In this document: one piece after another, positions 1 to 36,948 of the stretch
Layout of the letters: every line of letters starts with the position of its first letter
Numbering within the stretch: the first letter of the stretch is position 1
From: an uncultured Bacteroidota bacterium
GTDB taxonomy: Bacteria; Bacteroidota; Bacteroidia; 2-12-FULL-35-15
Length of the DNA stretch: 44,203 nt
Assembly: GCA_903911435.1 (NCBI GenBank)
Contig: CAIWDF010000024.1
Coordinates: 1-44,203 of the forward strand
Reading direction: 5' to 3'
The notes under the pieces: model-generated
What the model was told of the DNA's origin: nothing
Database searches by the model: none
The model's input: the letters and a program-made list of their open reading frames with translations, nothing else
Program-made: the position numbers and the translations under genes

Positions 1-268
1 CTAAAAAACAAATAGTAACCCTAAACAGAGTAATAGTAACTCATAACAAACAAATAGTAACCCTAAACAGAGTAATAGTAACTCATAACAAACAAATAGT
101 AACCCTAAACAGAGTAATAGTAACTCAAAACAGAGTAGGAGTAACTCAAAACAGACCAATAGTAACCCTAAACAGAGTAATAGTAACTCAAAACAGACCC
201 ATAGTAACTCAAAACACTCAAAAAGTAAAATTTCAAGGCAAAAAAGTAACATTAAAGAACAAAACTGT
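1..268 (-). repeat. 21-bp tandem array with conserved leader (copy 1, truncated by window edge)
   Basis: Read on the minus strand, a 54-base leader (268-215) runs into ten 21-bp units (214-5) and the first four bases of an eleventh, so the element continues beyond base 1. The unit core is GTTACTATTGGTCTGT, with a few positions changing between units. Two identical neighbouring pairs create a local 42-bp period in 5-110. The leader plus first unit matches the copy at 22830-22904 at 73 of 75 positions. The leader is itself in 21-bp phase, with TTACTTTTT starting every 21 bases. Because 21 is a multiple of three, several frames stay open by construction, and no gene is called here. Function unknown. 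Confidence 0.9.
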
Positions 269-335
269 ATTTCCACTCCTCCCAAGTCGTATATCCAAAT
301 CTCAATACTCATATCTCAATACTCAAATCTACATT

Positions 336-353
336 CCCTACAACTTTAAACTT
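336..353 (-). repeat. Short AGTTTAAAGTTG module flanking the array
   Basis: On the minus strand this stretch reads AGTTTAAAGTTGTAGGG, matching the end of the 15-bp repeat block at 22741-22800 that precedes the second 21-bp array. The two loci therefore share an outer flank as well as leader and array. The spacing between this module and the leader differs between them. The intervening DNA here (269-335) holds a short duplicated ATCTCAATACTCA motif and no gene. Confidence 0.55.
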
Positions 354-436
354 CAATTGCTAGAATATTTCAAAAATCGTATAGCTACTATTATTATATT
401 GTTTAATTTCACACTCTTTAAAAAACAGAAGAATAT

Positions 437-2860
437 ATGTGGGCAGCCATAGCAAGATTTATCTTACGTAACCGAATAGCCATCATTGTGGTGTTGACCG
501 TGATAACGGTTTTGTTTGGCTACTATGCCCGAATAGCGGAAATAAGTTACGAATCGCCAAAACTATTGCCCGACCACGATACCACTGCCATAGAGTACAA
601 AGCTTTTAAGAAACGTTTTGGGCAAGATGGAAGTGTGATGGTGCTGGGCATAAACGAGGATGGTTTGTACAAATTGGAACGATTTAACCAATGGTACGAC
701 CTAGGTGTGAGGCTGAAAGATGTGGTAGGTGTGAAAGCTGTGGTTTCCGTAGCTCGCTTGCGCACGGTGATAAAGAATGATAGTTTAGGGATATTTGAAG
801 ACAAGCCAATAGTAAGTCAACGGCCGAAAACGCAAGCGGAAGTGGATAGCTTGAAAACGGTGATTGCCAATTTGCCTTTTTACAAAGACATCATTTATAA
901 CGACTCGGCACATGCCACACTGATGGCCATTACCTTCGACAATAAAAAGCTGAATACCAAAAACCGATTGGACATAGTGGATGCCATAAAACTGGAGGTG
1001 GATAAGTTTGTGGGAGATTCGCATGTGGAGGTGCATTATTCGGGTATGCCTTATATACGCACTGCGGTAGCTAGGAAGATAAAGGACGAGATGTCGCTAT
1101 TTATGATCCTTGCCATTATTGTTACGGGTATTATTCTGTTTGTGTTTTTCCGTTCGATATTGCCCGTGGTGTTTTCGTTGGCAGTGGTGTTTGTGGGTGT
1201 TATTTGGTCGGTAGGGTTTTTGGTTTTATTTGGGTATCAGATTTCTGTTCTCACGGGCTTGATTCCTCCTTTGCTCATTGTTATTGGTGTGCCCAATTGC
1301 ATCATGTTGCTGAACAAGTATCATCAGGAATACAAGATACATGGCAACCAAATAAAATCGTTGGCACGCGCTATCGAGAAAGTGGGGGTATCACTGTTTT
1401 TGGCCAATGTAACTACCTCCATAGGGTTTGCAGTGTTTTGTTCAACGGATAGTACGTTGCTTTTCGAATTTGGTTTAATTTCGTCTATCAGTGTGATGTT
1501 TACTTACGTTATATCGATGATGTTGATACCTATCGTGTTTAGCTTTTTACCTCCGCCATCGGTGAAACATGTGAAACACTTACAATCGAAACTGATTACC
1601 AAACTGCTCGAAAAGATAAACTACATTGTGCATCATCATCGCCCTCGCATCTATGTGATAGTGGTTTGTATTCTTCTCGTGTCGGTGTTCGGTGTAACCA
1701 AAATATTGCCTTTGGGATATGTGGTAGACGATTTGCCAAAGAAAGACCCCGTGTTGCTGGACTTGAAATATTTCGAGAAAGATTATCACGGAGTGTTGCC
1801 TTTTGAAATAAGCATCGATTCGAAAAAGCCCAATGGTATATTTGCTGATGGAGGCCGAACGCTGTATAAAATAAATAAACTTCAAAAGCTGTTCTTACAA
1901 TATCCCGAATTTTCGAGAGCGGTGTCGGTGGTAGAGGGAATTAAGTTTTTCAATCAAGCCTATAACGATGGTAAGGTGAAAGCCTACCGATTGCCAGGCG
2001 CGATGGAATTACAGAAGCTTTCGGACTTTGCAGGAGCCAACATGAAAGGAAAAGGTAGTCAGTTTGTGGCATTTATAGACAGCACCAAACAGTATACCCG
2101 CATCAGCATACAGATGAAAGACATTGGTTCGATACGAATGACTAGCCTGATAGACACCTTGAAACCTCGAATAGACAGTGTTTTTAATTTTGATTATGAA
2201 ACCAACACGTGGGCAACAGCTGATAAAAACTACAAGGTGGTGGTTACAGGTAATAGCTTAATGTTTTTGAAAGGAAACGCCTTTTTGGTTGAAAACCTTT
2301 TAGAATCGGTATTGCTAGCTATTATCCTTATTGCTATTGTAATGTTCACCCTGTTCATGTCGCCTCGAATGGTGTTGATTTCGGTAATACCTAGTCTTGT
2401 TCCACTCATCATCACAGCAGGATTAATGGGCTTTTTCGATATTCATTTAAAACCTTCTACCATTTTAATCTTTAGTATTGCCTTCGGTATTTCGTCAGAT
2501 GGAACCATGTATTTCCTTACCAAATACCGACAAGAAATGAAAAACCACAACAGCAATATTTCGAAAACAGTGTCGTTAGCCATCCGCGAAACGGGAGTAA
2601 GCATGATTTATACGGCCATCATCCTTTTCTGTGGATTCGGCATATTCACTGCATCGAGCTTTGGTGGCACCGCAGCACTTGGAATTTTGATTTCGGTAAC
2701 GCTTCTGTTGGCCTATTGCTCCAATCTTGTATTGTTGCCTTGCTTTTTATTGACATTGGAAAAACGATTAACAACCAAAGCATTTTTAGCAGAACCATTA
2801 ATCCAAGTGTTCGATGAGGAAGAGGATATCGATTTGGATGAATTAGAAATAAAAGAATAA
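437..2860 (+). CDS. RND/MMPL-family membrane exporter
   Basis: This 807-residue integral membrane protein is built as two homologous halves, as in the RND superfamily. TM1 lies near residues 10-28, followed by a large extracytoplasmic domain and a five-helix block near 218-385. TM7 near 401-423 begins the second half, followed by another large domain and a block near 615-780. The second block contains the family-like stretch [18 protein letters not shown]. The C-terminus is strongly acidic. MMPL and patched-like RND proteins move lipids or other hydrophobic molecules across the inner membrane using ion gradients. The substrate cannot be read here, though the downstream lipid and glycan genes make an envelope component plausible. 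The ATG at 437 directly precedes TM1. rfbA follows 22 bp later, suggesting co-transcription. Confidence 0.85.
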
Positions 2861-20264: not shown

Positions 20265-22742
20265 ATGAAAAATAGTTTCGTAATACTTTATATTATAGTA
20301 TGCACTTTATGTGCAAGTAGTGGCTGGAGTATGCCAGCAGGAAAAACCACCTTAACAGGCAAGGTGACCGACAAAGCCAGTGGCGAGGCCCTACCAGGAG
20401 TTACCCTATATGTTCCCGACTTAAAAACTGGTGCTGTTACCAATTTGGATGGTGTATATAAAATAGAAAATTTGCCCAATTCGAAAATCTTAATTCAAAT
20501 TAGTTTTTTGGGTTATACGCCAATTTTAGAAACGGTAGACCTTGCCACCATCACGAACAAAGACTTTGCTTTGGAAGCCTCTGTAAAAGAGATGAGCGAA
20601 GTGGTGGTGACGGGAACTTCGAAAGCTACTGAGATAAAACGAAATCCGGTGCCTATGATGTCGGTGAACAAAGAGTTTCTTACACAAAATGCTTCCACCA
20701 ACATCATTGAAACATTGAATAAAGTTCCAGGAGTAAGCAGCCTTTCGACTGGCCCTAATGTATCGAAACCTTATATACGTGGGCTTGGCAGCAACCGTGT
20801 ACTTACTATGTATGATGGAGTGAGGCAAGAAGGCCAACAATGGGGCGAGGAGCATGGAGTGGAGATGGACCAGTTTTTAATCGACCATATTGAGGTGCTG
20901 AAAGGCCCTGCTAGCCTTATGTATGGCTCTGATGCATTGGCGGGTGTGGTGAACCTATTGCCTGCAAACCCAGTGCCCGAGGGCACCATCAAGGGAAATG
21001 TGCTTAGCAATTATCAGACGAACAACAAACAAATAGCTGGTTCGATAGCTTTGGATGGTAATAACAAAGGGTTTATTTGGGGATTTAGAGCATCGCGCAA
21101 GCAAGCGAGCAATTACCAAAACAAAGTGGATGGACCTGTGTACGGAACTAAATATCAAGAGAACGATTTGAATGCCTACATTGGCTTGCAACGTTCGTGG
21201 GGTTATACTCACCTCAACTTTAGTGTATACGACAACTTACAGGAAATACCAGATGGTAGTCGCGATTCGCTGACGCGAAAGTTTACGCAACAAATCAGTG
21301 AGCTGGATACCGTTCGGCCTATTGTTTCCAATCAACAACTTACCTCCTATTCTATTGCTGTGCTGCATCAGCATGTGCAACATTATCGTTTGTATTCGGC
21401 TAGCAATTTTATTTTCGGCAGAAGCAAACTCAACATGAACCTTGGGGTGCAGCAAAGTGTGCGCAGAGAATACAGTCACCCTACTGCTCCCGATTTGGCT
21501 GGTTTATCGCTTTTGCTCAATGTATATTCTTACGATTTCAAATTGCATTTGCCCGATGTGAATGGTCTCGAATCGACCATTGGAGTGAATGGAATGCTGC
21601 AACATAATGATGCTAGCAAGGGCAGCGAATTTGTGGTGCCCAACTATCGTTCGTTCGACCTAGGACCTTTTATTCATTTCAAAAAAACATTTGGCAAATT
21701 GGATGTGGCGGCTGGTATACGCTATGATGTAAGATGGTTTCAGAACGATTCGATGTATACTCATATCAACCCTTCTACCGGTTTCGAAGCTACCACCGCG
21801 TATACTGGCGACAGCACCTCCACCAAACAGTTTTCGTACTATAAACATATTTTTGCTGGACTAAGCGGCAGCATAGGTGCTACGTATAACTTGAACGATA
21901 AGTTGAGCATAAAGGCCAATGTGGCTCGTGGTTATCGTGCTCCTAATGTGTTCGAAATAGCTGCCAAAGGAGTGCACCCGGGCACTGGCATTCAACAGTT
22001 GGGTGACGACAATTTCAAGCCCGAATTCAGTTTGCAAGAAGACATCGGCCTTTTTCTCGAAAGCAAACATATTTCGGCAAGCATAGAAGTGTTCGAAAAC
22101 CATATCAGCAATTATATATACAACGAAAAACTACAAACTTCGCAAGGCAGCGATTCGCTTTTCCATCAAGCCGGAAACACATATCCGGTGTTCAAGTTTC
22201 GCCAAACAAGTGCTGCTTTGGTAGGTGGGGAATTGAGTTTCGAGATACATCCTCACCCACTCGATTGGTTGCATTTCGAAAACTCCATCTCCATTATATA
22301 TGCTACCAACCGAGGTGGCAATGGTGCACACATAACCGATAGTACCAAGTACCTGCCGTTTATTCCACCGCTGCATACCAATTCGGAACTACGAGCCAAC
22401 TTGAAAACCAAATTCGCACGCGTTGCCAACGCTTACCTCAAAATAGGGGTACAATATTATGCTGCGCAAAACAGGGCTTATCTTGCCTCGGGCACCGAAA
22501 CCAAAACCCCTGCTTACACCCTCGTGGAAGCAGGTATGGGCACCGATGTGCTCAACAAAAAAGGCAAAACGCTTATCAATGTGAGCATACTGGGCACCAA
22601 CCTGGCCGATGTGGCTTACCAATCGAACATGAGTAGGTTGAAGTATTTCGATAATTACCCCAACAATGGAAGTGGACGAAGTGGCATCTATAATATAGGT
22701 AGAAACATTAGTTTCAAGTTGGTGATTCCGGTGGGGTTTTAG
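20265..22742 (+). CDS. TonB-dependent outer-membrane receptor, probably metal uptake
   Basis: An 825-residue receptor. After a signal peptide (about 1-24) comes a carboxypeptidase-regulatory-like domain (TLTGKVTDKASGEALPGVTL ... VDL, about 27-105), then the plug domain with VPGVSSLSTGPNVSKPYIRGLGSNRV and IDHIEVLKGPASLMYGSDALAGVVNL, then a beta-barrel ending in the aromatic C-terminus VIPVGF. The plug segment DGVRQEGQQWGEEHGVE resembles zinc/copper-type receptors, from memory of the family. The neighbouring His/Cys-rich protein supports metal uptake. The true start is ATG 20265, just after an in-frame TTG. The gene ends directly in the 15-bp repeat block. Confidence 0.9.
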   Translation: MKNSFVILYIIVCTLCASSGWSMPAGKTTLTGKVTDKASGEALPGVTLYVPDLKTGAVTNLDGVYKIENLPNSKILIQISFLGYTPILETVDLATITNKDFALEASVKEMSEVVVTGTSKATEIKRNPVPMMSVNKEFLTQNASTNIIETLNKVPGVSSLSTGPNVSKPYIRGLGSNRVLTMYDGVRQEGQQWGEEHGVEMDQFLIDHIEVLKGPASLMYGSDALAGVVNLLPANPVPEGTIKGNVLSNYQTNNKQIAGSIALDGNNKGFIWGFRASRKQASNYQNKVDGPVYGTKYQENDLNAYIGLQRSWGYTHLNFSVYDNLQEIPDGSRDSLTRKFTQQISELDTVRPIVSNQQLTSYSIAVLHQHVQHYRLYSASNFIFGRSKLNMNLGVQQSVRREYSHPTAPDLAGLSLLLNVYSYDFKLHLPDVNGLESTIGVNGMLQHNDASKGSEFVVPNYRSFDLGPFIHFKKTFGKLDVAAGIRYDVRWFQNDSMYTHINPSTGFEATTAYTGDSTSTKQFSYYKHIFAGLSGSIGATYNLNDKLSIKANVARGYRAPNVFEIAAKGVHPGTGIQQLGDDNFKPEFSLQEDIGLFLESKHISASIEVFENHISNYIYNEKLQTSQGSDSLFHQAGNTYPVFKFRQTSAALVGGELSFEIHPHPLDWLHFENSISIIYATNRGGNGAHITDSTKYLPFIPPLHTNSELRANLKTKFARVANAYLKIGVQYYAAQNRAYLASGTETKTPAYTLVEAGMGTDVLNKKGKTLINVSILGTNLADVAYQSNMSRLKYFDNYPNNGSGRSGIYNIGRNISFKLVIPVGF

Positions 22743-22800
22743 TTTAAAGTTAGAAAGTTTAAAGTTGGAAAGTTTAAAGTTAGAAAGTTTAAAGTTGGAG
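22741..22800 (+). repeat. 15-bp tandem repeat (AGTTTAAAGTTAGAA), four copies
   Basis: Four adjacent 15-bp units alternate between AGTTTAAAGTTAGAA and AGTTTAAAGTTGGAA/GAG. They begin at the last base of the receptor stop codon. The final unit, AGTTTAAAGTTGGAGGG, is nearly the same as the module at 336-353, so it forms the outer edge of the repeat element. Confidence 0.9.
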
Positions 22801-22829: not shown

Positions 22830-23135
22830 ACAGTTTGGTTCTTTAATATTACTTTTTTGCCTTGAAATTTTACTTTTTGAGTGTTTTGAGTTACTATGGG
22901 TCTGTTATGCGTTACTCTAGCTCTGTTTAGGGTTACTATTGGTCTGTTTTGGGTTACTATTGGTCTGTTATGAGTTACTCTTACTCTGTTTTGAGTTACT
23001 CTTACTCTGTTATGGGTTACTATGGGTCTGTTATGAGTTACTCTTGCTCTGTTTAGGGTTACTATTGGTCTGTTTTGAGTTACTATTACTCTGTTTAGGG
23101 TTACTATTTGTTTTTTAGGGTTACTATTTTGATAA
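22830..23135 (+). repeat. 21-bp tandem array with conserved leader (copy 2, complete)
   Basis: A 54-base leader (22830-22883) is followed by eleven 21-bp units (22884-23114) and a twelfth degenerate unit to 23135. The leader plus first unit agrees with copy 1 at 73 of 75 positions. The last units, containing TTTAGGGTTACTATTTGTTT, also match copy 1. The interior units differ in order and kind: variable positions are the two bases after the second T of GTT, the base after TTG or TAG, A or C after TTACT, and the two or three bases before TCTG. Between the leader and the 15-bp block lie 29 unremarkable bases. Confidence 0.92.
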
Positions 23136-23140
23136 AAAAA

Positions 23141-23290
23141 GTAAAAAAGGGGTTTTTGAAAAGTAAAATGGGTGACAAAAAAAGTAAAAGTGAGTTTTGA
23201 AAAAGTAAAAAAGGGGTTTTTGAAAAGTAAAATGGGTGACAAAAAAAGTAAAAGTGAGTTTTGAAAAGGTAAAAATGGTTTTTTAGGATT
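23141..23290 (+). repeat. 64-bp tandem repeat made of three ~21-bp subunits
   Basis: Two nearly identical 64-bp copies start at 23141 and 23205, with a third partial copy from 23269. Inside each copy GTAAAA recurs at spacings of 22, 21 and 21 bp, so the 21-bp phase continues after the array. Reverse-complemented, the TTACTTTTT core matches the leader of the array. The rest of the gap to the peptidase start at 23452 holds A/T-rich sequence with a near-match promoter element TACCTTTA (23419-23426). Confidence 0.88.
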
Positions 23291-34049: not shown

Positions 34050-35174
34050 ATGCTAATCAAGGAATTATTTCAACGCACATTTTTAGGTAATACACTCGAG
34101 TCGTATTGTTGGTTCGTTGGTATTATTCTGCTCGGGGTTTTGTTCAAGCGCTTGCTATCAAAGCTTCTGGCGTTATGTGTGTTTAAGTTTCTTCAAAAAT
34201 ATTCGAAAGGAATAGGCTACGAACGTCTATTACTTCTACTGAAGAAACCATTGGGACTACTCATCTTATTGACCACTTTTTATCTGGCCTTCGACCGAAT
34301 ACACTTTCCGGAAGAATGGAATTTGGTAACTATCGAACAGTTTGGTCTTCGTTTAATACTCATGAGATTGTTTCAAATCATGATTGTGATTAACATTACT
34401 TGGATTGTGCTTAGGGTAATCGATTTCTTAGCGTTGGTGCTTTCGCACAAAGCAGCGAGTACCGAAACAAAAACGGATGACCAAATTGTTCCTTTTATAA
34501 AAGACGCAGCAAAGGTGGTGGTGAGCATTTTCTCGTTATTCTTTATCCTTGGCGCTATTTTCCAATTAAATGTAGCTTCGCTAATAGCAGGTTTAGGTAT
34601 TGGTGGTTTGGCAGTAGCGTTAGCAGCTAAAGAATCGTTAGAAAATTTGTTGGGTTCGTTTACCATTTTTTTGGACAAGCCTTTTGTGATAGGCGATTTG
34701 ATAAAGGTTGGAAACATTGAAGGAACGGTTGAGAAAATTGGGTTCAGAAGTACACGCATTAGAACGGCTGAAAAAAGCTATGTAACCGTACCAAACAAAA
34801 AAATGGTAGACAGTGAACTCGATAACTTGTCGATGCGTATGCAACGGCTGGTTAAATTCAATTTGGGACTTGCCTATGGGACAAGCGCTAAAAAAGTAAC
34901 CAACATTATTAATGATATTCAAATAACTTTAGATTCGAACCCAATCATCATTGGTGACGAAACGTTGATAAAGCTCCATAATTTTAGTGAAACAGGCATT
35001 GTTATCTTGGTTATGTATACGGTAGATAGCTCAGAATATAAAGTATACTTAAGCGTACGTCAGGAAATGAACCTAAAGGTAATGGAGATAATAGAAAAAC
35101 ACGGCAGCGGTTTTGCTCATACTTCTTTGGATATGTTTTTGACTAATAAATTAGACAACAAAGCAGCTAACTAA
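34050..35174 (+). CDS. MscS-family mechanosensitive ion channel
   Basis: A 374-residue inner-membrane channel of the small-conductance mechanosensitive family that releases solutes under hypo-osmotic stress. There are membrane helices near 15-35, 65-85, 105-130 and 150-175, then the pore-lining helix with the Gly/Ala pattern LIAGLGIGGLAVALAAKESLENLLGS and the beta domain FVIGDLIKVGNIEGTVEKIGFRSTRIRT. The C-terminus has a cytoplasmic alpha/beta domain. Number of helices and length fit MscS relatives with one extra N-terminal helix pair. A weak hairpin (ACGTTTA/TAAACGT, 35187-35207) follows the stop without a T tract; the large repeat array then begins. Confidence 0.92.
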   Translation: MLIKELFQRTFLGNTLESYCWFVGIILLGVLFKRLLSKLLALCVFKFLQKYSKGIGYERLLLLLKKPLGLLILLTTFYLAFDRIHFPEEWNLVTIEQFGLRLILMRLFQIMIVINITWIVLRVIDFLALVLSHKAASTETKTDDQIVPFIKDAAKVVVSIFSLFFILGAIFQLNVASLIAGLGIGGLAVALAAKESLENLLGSFTIFLDKPFVIGDLIKVGNIEGTVEKIGFRSTRIRTAEKSYVTVPNKKMVDSELDNLSMRMQRLVKFNLGLAYGTSAKKVTNIINDIQITLDSNPIIIGDETLIKLHNFSETGIVILVMYTVDSSEYKVYLSVRQEMNLKVMEIIEKHGSGFAHTSLDMFLTNKLDNKAAN

Positions 35175-35272: not shown

Positions 35273-35818
35273 TTTGAATAACGAAAACTCTTTTCTGATA
35301 AAAGACGACTTCTATCTATTAATCGAATGGCTCTTTTGGATAAAAGATTAAACCTTCCTGACATTCGAAAATTATTTTCGACTAGTCGATAATTGCTTCC
35401 GAACATTCAAACAACGCATCCGAATAAACGGAAGACCCTCCCGAATACTCGAATGACTCTTCCTGATACTCGAAAAGTATTTTCGACTAGTCGATGACCT
35501 CTCCCGAATATTCGGACAACTCATCCGAATAAGCGAAAGACCCTTCGGAATACTCGGACAACTCTTCCCGATATTCGAAAAATATTTTCGAATAGTCGAT
35601 GACACCTTCCGAACATTCGGACAACTCATCCGAATAAGCGAAAGACCCTTCGGAATACTCGAACGACTCTTCCTGATATTCGAAAAATATTTTCGAATAG
35701 TCGATGACCTCTTCCGAACATTCGGACGACTTATCCGAATAAGCGAAAGACCTTTCCGAATAGTCGAAAATATTTTTCGACTATTCGGATGATGTTTTCT
35801 GATAAGCGAAAGGATTTT
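35273..35818. repeat. 21-bp tandem array with 105-bp higher-order period (26 units)
   Basis: From 35273 to 35818 the sequence divides into 26 units of exactly 21 bp with no register break. Five unit types repeat in order, giving a 105-bp higher-order repeat: type 1 CCGAACATTCGG.., type 2 CCGAATAAGCGAAAGA.., type 3 CGGAATACTCGA.., type 4 CCTGATATTCGAAAAA.., type 5 TCGAATAGTCGATGA... Three complete five-unit copies begin at 35399, 35504 and 35609, with partial copies on both sides and more degenerate units at the left end (35273-35356). Many units hold 12-bp dyads such as CCGAATATTCGG (35504) and TCGACTAGTCGA (35378 and 35483). DNA between the mscS stop and 35273 is not clearly repetitive. Confidence 0.93.
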
Positions 35819-36153: not shown

Positions 36154-36948
36154 ATGAAAAATCAAAATCAAACAATCGAAAACTTCAACGATTTGGTTTT
36201 CGAAAATCGTAACAAGGCTTATGGAGCTTATGTTATGCGTCAATCGTATCATCAAAATGTAAGTAAATCTTTACTAGTATCCATGTTGTTTTTTAGCCTG
36301 CTAGTGCTAGTAGGAGTGTTGTTGAGTGGAAATCAAATGCCAAAAATAAAGCTCGATAACATTCAAAAACTTGATTCGTTAGTGTCCACAGCAGTAGATG
36401 TAACCCCACCAGAAAAGCCAAAATTAATGGAACCAACAAAATTGAAAGAACTGGTAAAACCGAAAACAGATGTTCTGATTGTGGAAGTGAAAGATAAAAA
36501 AGAAGACGCTTCCATTAAAACAAATGAGAATGCGAAAATAGACCCTAAAGGTGAGTTAAATGGGAAAGACAGTATTCCAGTGAAAGAAGACTTCACGGTA
36601 AAGACTAACAATAAGGGTATCGACTTAAATGATAAAAACGAAGACCCTAAGTTGGTGGCTGATGTGATGCCTGAATTCAGAGGAGATCTATTCAGATACT
36701 TAAGCGAAAATATGCGGTATCCTCGCATGGCCGTTGAAGCCCTTACTCAAGGCACCGTTTACTTAACATTTGTGGTTGAAAAAAATGGTGACATAGGAGA
36801 TATAAAAGTACTAAAGGCGGTGTCGGAAGGTTGCACCGAAGAAGCTATAAGGGTGGTGAAGTCGATGCCTAAATGGAATCCCGGTAAAAACCATGGACAA
36901 CCAGTGAGGGTACAATACAATTTACCCGTGAAATTTAGACTTCGGTAA
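36154..36948 (+). CDS. tonB: Energy transducer TonB (second locus)
   Basis: A 264-residue TonB with the Bacteroidota-type N-terminus LVFENRNKAYGAYVMRQSYHQN, a membrane helix near 43-62, a Lys/Pro/Glu-rich spacer (about 80-160, without the poly-proline of the other copy) and a TonB C-terminal domain (YPRMAVEALTQGTVYLTFVVEKNG ... VVKSMPKWNPGKNHGQ ... VRVQYNLPVKFRLR). Plan and ends are very like the TonB at 13774. It is separated from exbB by 186 bp containing a long hairpin, so it may be expressed separately. Confidence 0.95.
   Translation: MKNQNQTIENFNDLVFENRNKAYGAYVMRQSYHQNVSKSLLVSMLFFSLLVLVGVLLSGNQMPKIKLDNIQKLDSLVSTAVDVTPPEKPKLMEPTKLKELVKPKTDVLIVEVKDKKEDASIKTNENAKIDPKGELNGKDSIPVKEDFTVKTNNKGIDLNDKNEDPKLVADVMPEFRGDLFRYLSENMRYPRMAVEALTQGTVYLTFVVEKNGDIGDIKVLKAVSEGCTEEAIRVVKSMPKWNPGKNHGQPVRVQYNLPVKFRLR

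Follow-up and report, generated by a model that had tools for sequence, protein, structure and literature searches.

A 21-bp constant-period tandem array in an uncultured Bacteroidota bacterium as a probable orphan of a satellite class linked to two small-gene families

The array and its locus

The window analyzed here, 44,203 nucleotides in length, is a whole contig (C24) of the 4.19-Mb draft genome (312 contigs) of an uncultured Bacteroidota bacterium. On its forward strand, a gene for an MscS-type mechanosensitive channel (34050–35174, 374 aa) is followed by a TonB-type gene (36154–36948, 264 aa) and then by ExbB/ExbD-type genes, all named by sequence reading. Between the MscS- and TonB-type genes, on the upstream side of the latter, lies a tandem array of 26 units of 21 bp (35273–35818) with a consensus of about CCGAATAtTCGaAngACtCTT.

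A sequence-only reading of this DNA described an unbroken 21-bp register with a 105-bp higher-order repeat, and this description is confirmed. Arranged in 21-bp rows from position 35273, the array keeps its phase across all 26 units. TRF places the five-unit higher-order repeat at 35354–35768 (period 105, 4.0 copies, 88% match, 0% indels). A phase-tracking model detects no register shift inside the array despite 161 departures from the consensus, the lone marginal shift falling in the first unit, at 35282. The autocorrelation peak of 0.63 at lag 21 is far above chance (background 0.27, sd 0.04), and divergence is greatest among the outer units. The weight of the missing indels as key evidence is reduced because other-period arrays of the same genome show a similar ratio of shifts to substitutions (23:751 against 66:2742). 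The special feature is the 21-bp period recurring genome-wide, rather than the absence of indels.

Many units had also been credited with 12-bp dyads. This tendency is real but was overstated, as perfect 12-bp palindromes, read in the 21-bp rows, are present in 3 of the 26 units: TCGACTAGTCGA at 35378–35389 and 35483–35494, and CCGAATATTCGG at 35504–35515. Across all units, 63.5% of dyad pairs are Watson-Crick, compared with 57.8% in shuffled sequence (p=0.0045), and the corresponding test among core units alone gives p=0.36. The dyads are thus imperfect and weakly conserved, with a modest excess over shuffled sequence. Self-reverse-complementarity of the whole array is approximately 60%, its dyad centres being separated by half a period; against the array's own reverse strand, some stretches reach a match of 72–75%.

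Folding of the array exceeds that of dinucleotide shuffles on both strands (z of -6.1 on the plus strand and -10.6 on the minus strand). Such folding, together with the promoter-like and boxA-like elements that precede the gene-linked arrays described below, would suit an RNA element, that is, a transcribed hairpin array serving as an attenuator, a sponge or a processed small RNA. However, the better-folding strand is antisense to both neighbour genes, a search of Rfam returned no match above the gathering score, and clear excess folding is absent in about half of the arrays. Moreover, the sense strand folds better in 25 of 52 gene-linked arrays (p=0.83), a result that gives no favor to a strand-specific RNA structure. 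An RNA element is accordingly regarded as unlikely.

When the locus is compared among relatives, the array is not conserved. The MscS–TonB order is found without it in seven relatives (L059, L060, L061, L065, L068, L070 and L076), and a DNA search of 58 relative genomes found no match to the array; this copy is lineage-specific. A second array of the same unit family is located elsewhere in this genome (C158:27769–28028). The flanks of the array contain no match to GTTC[AT]TT[GA] and no facing promoter was found in them, and neither of its neighbours belongs to the two array-linked gene families described below. The array is therefore an orphan, having no boxA, no facing promoter and no linked gene.

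Recurrence of the 21-bp period

A survey of 779 kb, or 19% of the genome, identified 68 non-coding arrays, 43 of which have their best lag at 21, 42 or 63. Arrays with these periods occur at about 55 per Mb, or by extrapolation ~230 in this genome. In small comparison samples of 330–390 kb each, their rate falls from 17.8 per Mb among same-genus genomes to 2.9 among those of the same class and to 0 in loci from other phyla. No survey array has a period near 31 or 52. Array lengths range from 95 to 553 bp, with 298 bp as the median. The 48 arrays compared fall into 39 unit families and share no common motif, with mainly A-rich words exceeding the null. Across 41 arrays there is no 10.5-bp A/T phasing, and an interpretation in terms of DNA curvature is ruled out by this lack of periodicity.

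The window itself contains two further 21-bp arrays. The first (7–332), at the contig end, has a unit, AATAGTAACTCAAAACAGAGT, that is unrelated to that of the 35273–35818 array and is without a dyad. Direct reading of its sequence reveals a boxA-like GTTCTTT at 255–261 that lies on the minus strand and points towards the repeat units of 7–230. The second (22836–23290) belongs to the same unit family in the opposite orientation and has a boxA-like GTTCTTT at its left edge (22838–22844, plus strand). These two arrays have about 60 bp of flank in common, each with the boxA-like motif at one end, and their unit family has four copies in the genome. Adjoining 21-bp repeats, a 64-bp repeat with a unit rich in AAAAAGTAAAA occupies 23136–23284 (2.2 copies, 98%). 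Short repeats of 15 bp and 14 bp lie at 22741–22799 and 296–330, respectively; arrays of 14 bp (heptamer) and 16 bp (octamer) form a second, smaller repeat class of this genome. In a relative, a 22-bp array (L263:1042–1329) precedes an ABC-F gene, and a 21-bp array of unrelated unit lies beside the same gene here.

Because 21 bp correspond to seven codons, a coding origin, in which the array encodes seven-residue repeats and codons keep the register, also has to be considered. Some other arrays are open in at least one frame (e.g., window positions 3–452 and L222), and open frames are in slight overall excess. Nevertheless, 13 of 38 arrays have no open frame, and periods of 22, 41, 43 and 44 also occur. 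For the 35273–35818 array, coding is refuted, since each of the six frames contains stop codons and the array has no open reading frame. As an account of the arrays, coding is highly improbable.

A neutral origin, in which functionless arrays arise from replication or recombination in steps of about 21 bp, deserves more weight. The array's decayed edges and its higher-order repeat are features that turnover of satellites typically leaves. In addition, arrays are intergenic in every orientation without preference for gene orientation, and their presence varies between species. However, this reading would lead one to expect short precursors, and 2–4-copy duplications of 21 or 42 bp outside long arrays number one in 779 kb, at a contig end. 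Tandem duplications of the other sizes tested are almost absent. Given how few 2–4-copy duplications there are, the arrays are unlike the tail of general slippage. The association of similar arrays with two gene families, which is nearly invariant (see the following section), also counts against a neutral minisatellite, which is plausible, although not the reading favored here.

Arrays linked to two gene families

Similar arrays are strongly linked to two gene families. Family 1 is a multi-copy family of ~220 aa present in 9 of 59 genomes. Among its copies with enough flank, 54 of 56 have an array of 20–22 or 41–44 bp upstream, compared with 1 of 98 control-gene flanks. The array-linked copies come from genomes of several families, two of them from other classes of the phylum. 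The starting gene was picked for adjoining an array (the L069/L076 locus); consequently, independent evidence comes from the remaining copies and not from this gene or its close orthologues. In family 2 (L214, L144, L232 and 12 further loci), an array lies upstream in 15 of 15 cases. The two families have no detectable sequence similarity, yet they are found in nearly the same genomes, and both comprise proteins of ~210–220 aa.

Family 1 has no credible match in Pfam, NCBIfam, PHROGs or PADLOC. AlphaFold models of two sequences, of low confidence (mean pLDDT 62), predict an initial helical part and, after it, a domain of seven strands (pLDDT about 64–85), the best PDB matches of which are fibronectin-III domains (E about 1e-4). 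Proteins of this family may therefore combine a helical start with a fibronectin-III-like C-terminus.

Orphan arrays might be relics of gene-linked ones; in the part of this genome that was sampled, the sole remnant of a family-1 gene seen is at L220, where a 229-aa relative (L220:18507–19193) has a 21-bp array upstream; the unit family of that array recurs at L228:3216 in an array that does not adjoin such a gene. A 311-aa hypothetical gene (L137:3204 onward; MASETRKKPESNV...) starts 233 bp after a 42-bp array and possibly represents a third array-linked family. In a 42-bp array at L144:14985–15212, the two arms of a hairpin match one another but change from one hairpin to the next (GAGGCATAG/CTATGCCTC), a pattern that either selection or template switching at hairpins would produce.

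Promoter-like and boxA-like elements precede many of the gene-linked arrays. The box GTTCTTTG or GTTCATTG is found ahead of 21 of 54, compared with 4 of 54 in the reverse-complement control, and the promoter-like TAnnTTTG is found ahead of 17, compared with 8 in the same type of control. In this genome (G000) and in G120, TACTTTTG and GTTCTTTGAAAATATTG stand ahead of the 16S rRNA gene, and with the same box occurring there it is most likely boxA. Judged from these elements, many gene-linked arrays look like transcribed leaders. Around generic arrays, the box occurs in 4 of 81 flanks facing the array and in 3 facing away; this absence of enrichment rules out boxA as a general array feature.

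Orthologous gene-linked arrays change in length by whole units. The arrays at L069 275–613 and L076 1616–1916, from two relatives, have flanks about 78% identical and the same end points, and differ by one 21-bp unit; core replacement has run in parallel in the direct and the inverted units. In sister genomes, two further pairs of gene-linked arrays show length differences of exactly 63 and 84 bp, and boxA and the gene start are unchanged. All three orthologous pairs thus differ by whole units (21, 63 and 84 bp), and out-of-register indels, which would have told against a fixed spacing, are absent from these three gene-linked pairs, none of which is the 35273–35818 locus itself. At the same time, the units change in sequence far more rapidly than the protein does, and they lose similarity while the linked proteins stay recognizably alike.

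The proposal that selection maintains unit spacing is borne out in part: whole-unit changes and the use of periods 21 and 42 by unrelated units indicate that spacing matters for the array class, and selection on spacing is possible. The binding lattice to which that proposal was tied gains no support. In such a lattice, a loosely specific protein would polymerize on sites two helical turns apart, the length of the 21-bp step, and organize the nucleoid or partition. Several observations fit this arrangement, including the constancy of the step across unrelated sequences, length change by whole units and the dyad symmetry that about half the arrays show. A similar idea has been put forward in passages by the authors of a published class of constant-size satellites (PMC8161180). 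By contrast, the lack of a common motif and of 10.5-bp phasing and the absence of this copy from seven relatives speak against a partition or nucleoid-organizing site, and conserved linkage of similar arrays is to genes, often with boxA. A protein-binding lattice is thus considered improbable, albeit slightly less so than an RNA element.

Interpretation and relation to known systems

Taken as a whole, the 35273–35818 array is probably best explained as an orphan among constant-period satellites of 21 bp. This explanation reads the orphan through the gene-linked arrays, by analogy. A gene-linked array would constitute a transcribed, untranslated leader through which boxA antitermination may carry RNA polymerase. 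The array would expand, contract and homogenize via in-register exchange or slippage between units, such that unit count, and not unit sequence, would be the heritable variable. The orphan, whether dispersed or independently born, would evolve through the same in-register process. The 21-bp length of the step may be set by a mutational step or by the footprint of a protein or RNA. A more elaborate version, offered tentatively and rated as less probable than a neutral origin, treats the Bacteroidota 21-bp satellites as a module of promoter, boxA, register-locked leader and helical/fibronectin-III-like protein. In this module, unit number might act as a heritable expression setting, and the orphans, numbering in the hundreds and including the present one, might be dispersed partners of the protein, either as binding sites or as competing RNA.

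Several known repeat systems differ from this array. CRISPR arrays combine identical repeats with unique spacers, whereas the units here are contiguous and without spacers. ParB/parS and other partition sites consist of a conserved motif near a partition gene; the arrays here have no motif in common, and inspection of the window ORFs by eye, rather than by profile search, revealed no ParA/ParB-like gene. Plasmid iterons are direct repeats beside an initiator gene, and the same inspection by eye, again without profiles, recognized no replication-initiator-like gene in the window. Eukaryotic alpha-satellite-type arrays are characterized by a higher-order repeat, diverged edges and a homogenized centre. 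The present array shares these three features; unlike eukaryotic satellites, however, the arrays here are bacterial and short (about 300 bp) and keep a fixed 21-bp quantum across unrelated sequences.

The gene-linked arrays resemble the boxA-led untranslated transcripts of rRNA operons and CRISPR arrays (PMC7862264) in that many of them follow TAnnTTTG and GTTCTTTG, as does rRNA within these same genomes. In another bacterium, a long untranslated array was transcribed more strongly owing to boxA (PMC7862264). In contrast to these transcripts, the arrays here lack spacers and have a protein gene downstream, and the orphan is without boxA.

The closest parallel is the constant-size satellites. 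Subirana and Messeguer describe tandem repeats of constant size (20–21 or 52 nt) and variable, species-specific sequence in Bacillus, and 20–23-nt repeats, of unknown function, are said to turn up in single species across many groups of bacteria (PMC8161180, which cites J Bacteriol 2020 e00229-20 for constant-size tandem repeats). As portrayed in the passages of PMC8161180 considered here, these satellites share several properties with the arrays of the present genome: unit size is constant and sequence variable, with several families per genome; they are mostly non-coding, as is the orphan, with some other arrays here being open; and families are species-specific, as reflected here in the lack of matches among relatives. 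The 35273–35818 array belongs to this published class. Differences from the satellites so described include the host, an uncultured Bacteroidota, the combination of 42-bp and 21-bp arrays, and frequent self-reverse-complementarity. In B. weihaiensis, a characteristic short motif, which the same passages do not state to be defining, occurs in most arrays, whereas none was found here.

Gene linkage, often with boxA, does not appear in the passages of PMC8161180 on the class. A literature search found no arrays beside fibronectin-III genes, which is weak evidence, as subscription papers lay mostly outside it. Constant-size satellites with unconserved sequence are reported across bacteria without a known function. 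The link of arrays to two small-protein families provides, at least in Bacteroidota, genes and transcripts to study, and the role of the present array, one of many orphans, can be asked against a gene-linked reference. The class itself is already published; what is new here is the near-invariant link of similar arrays to two small-gene families.
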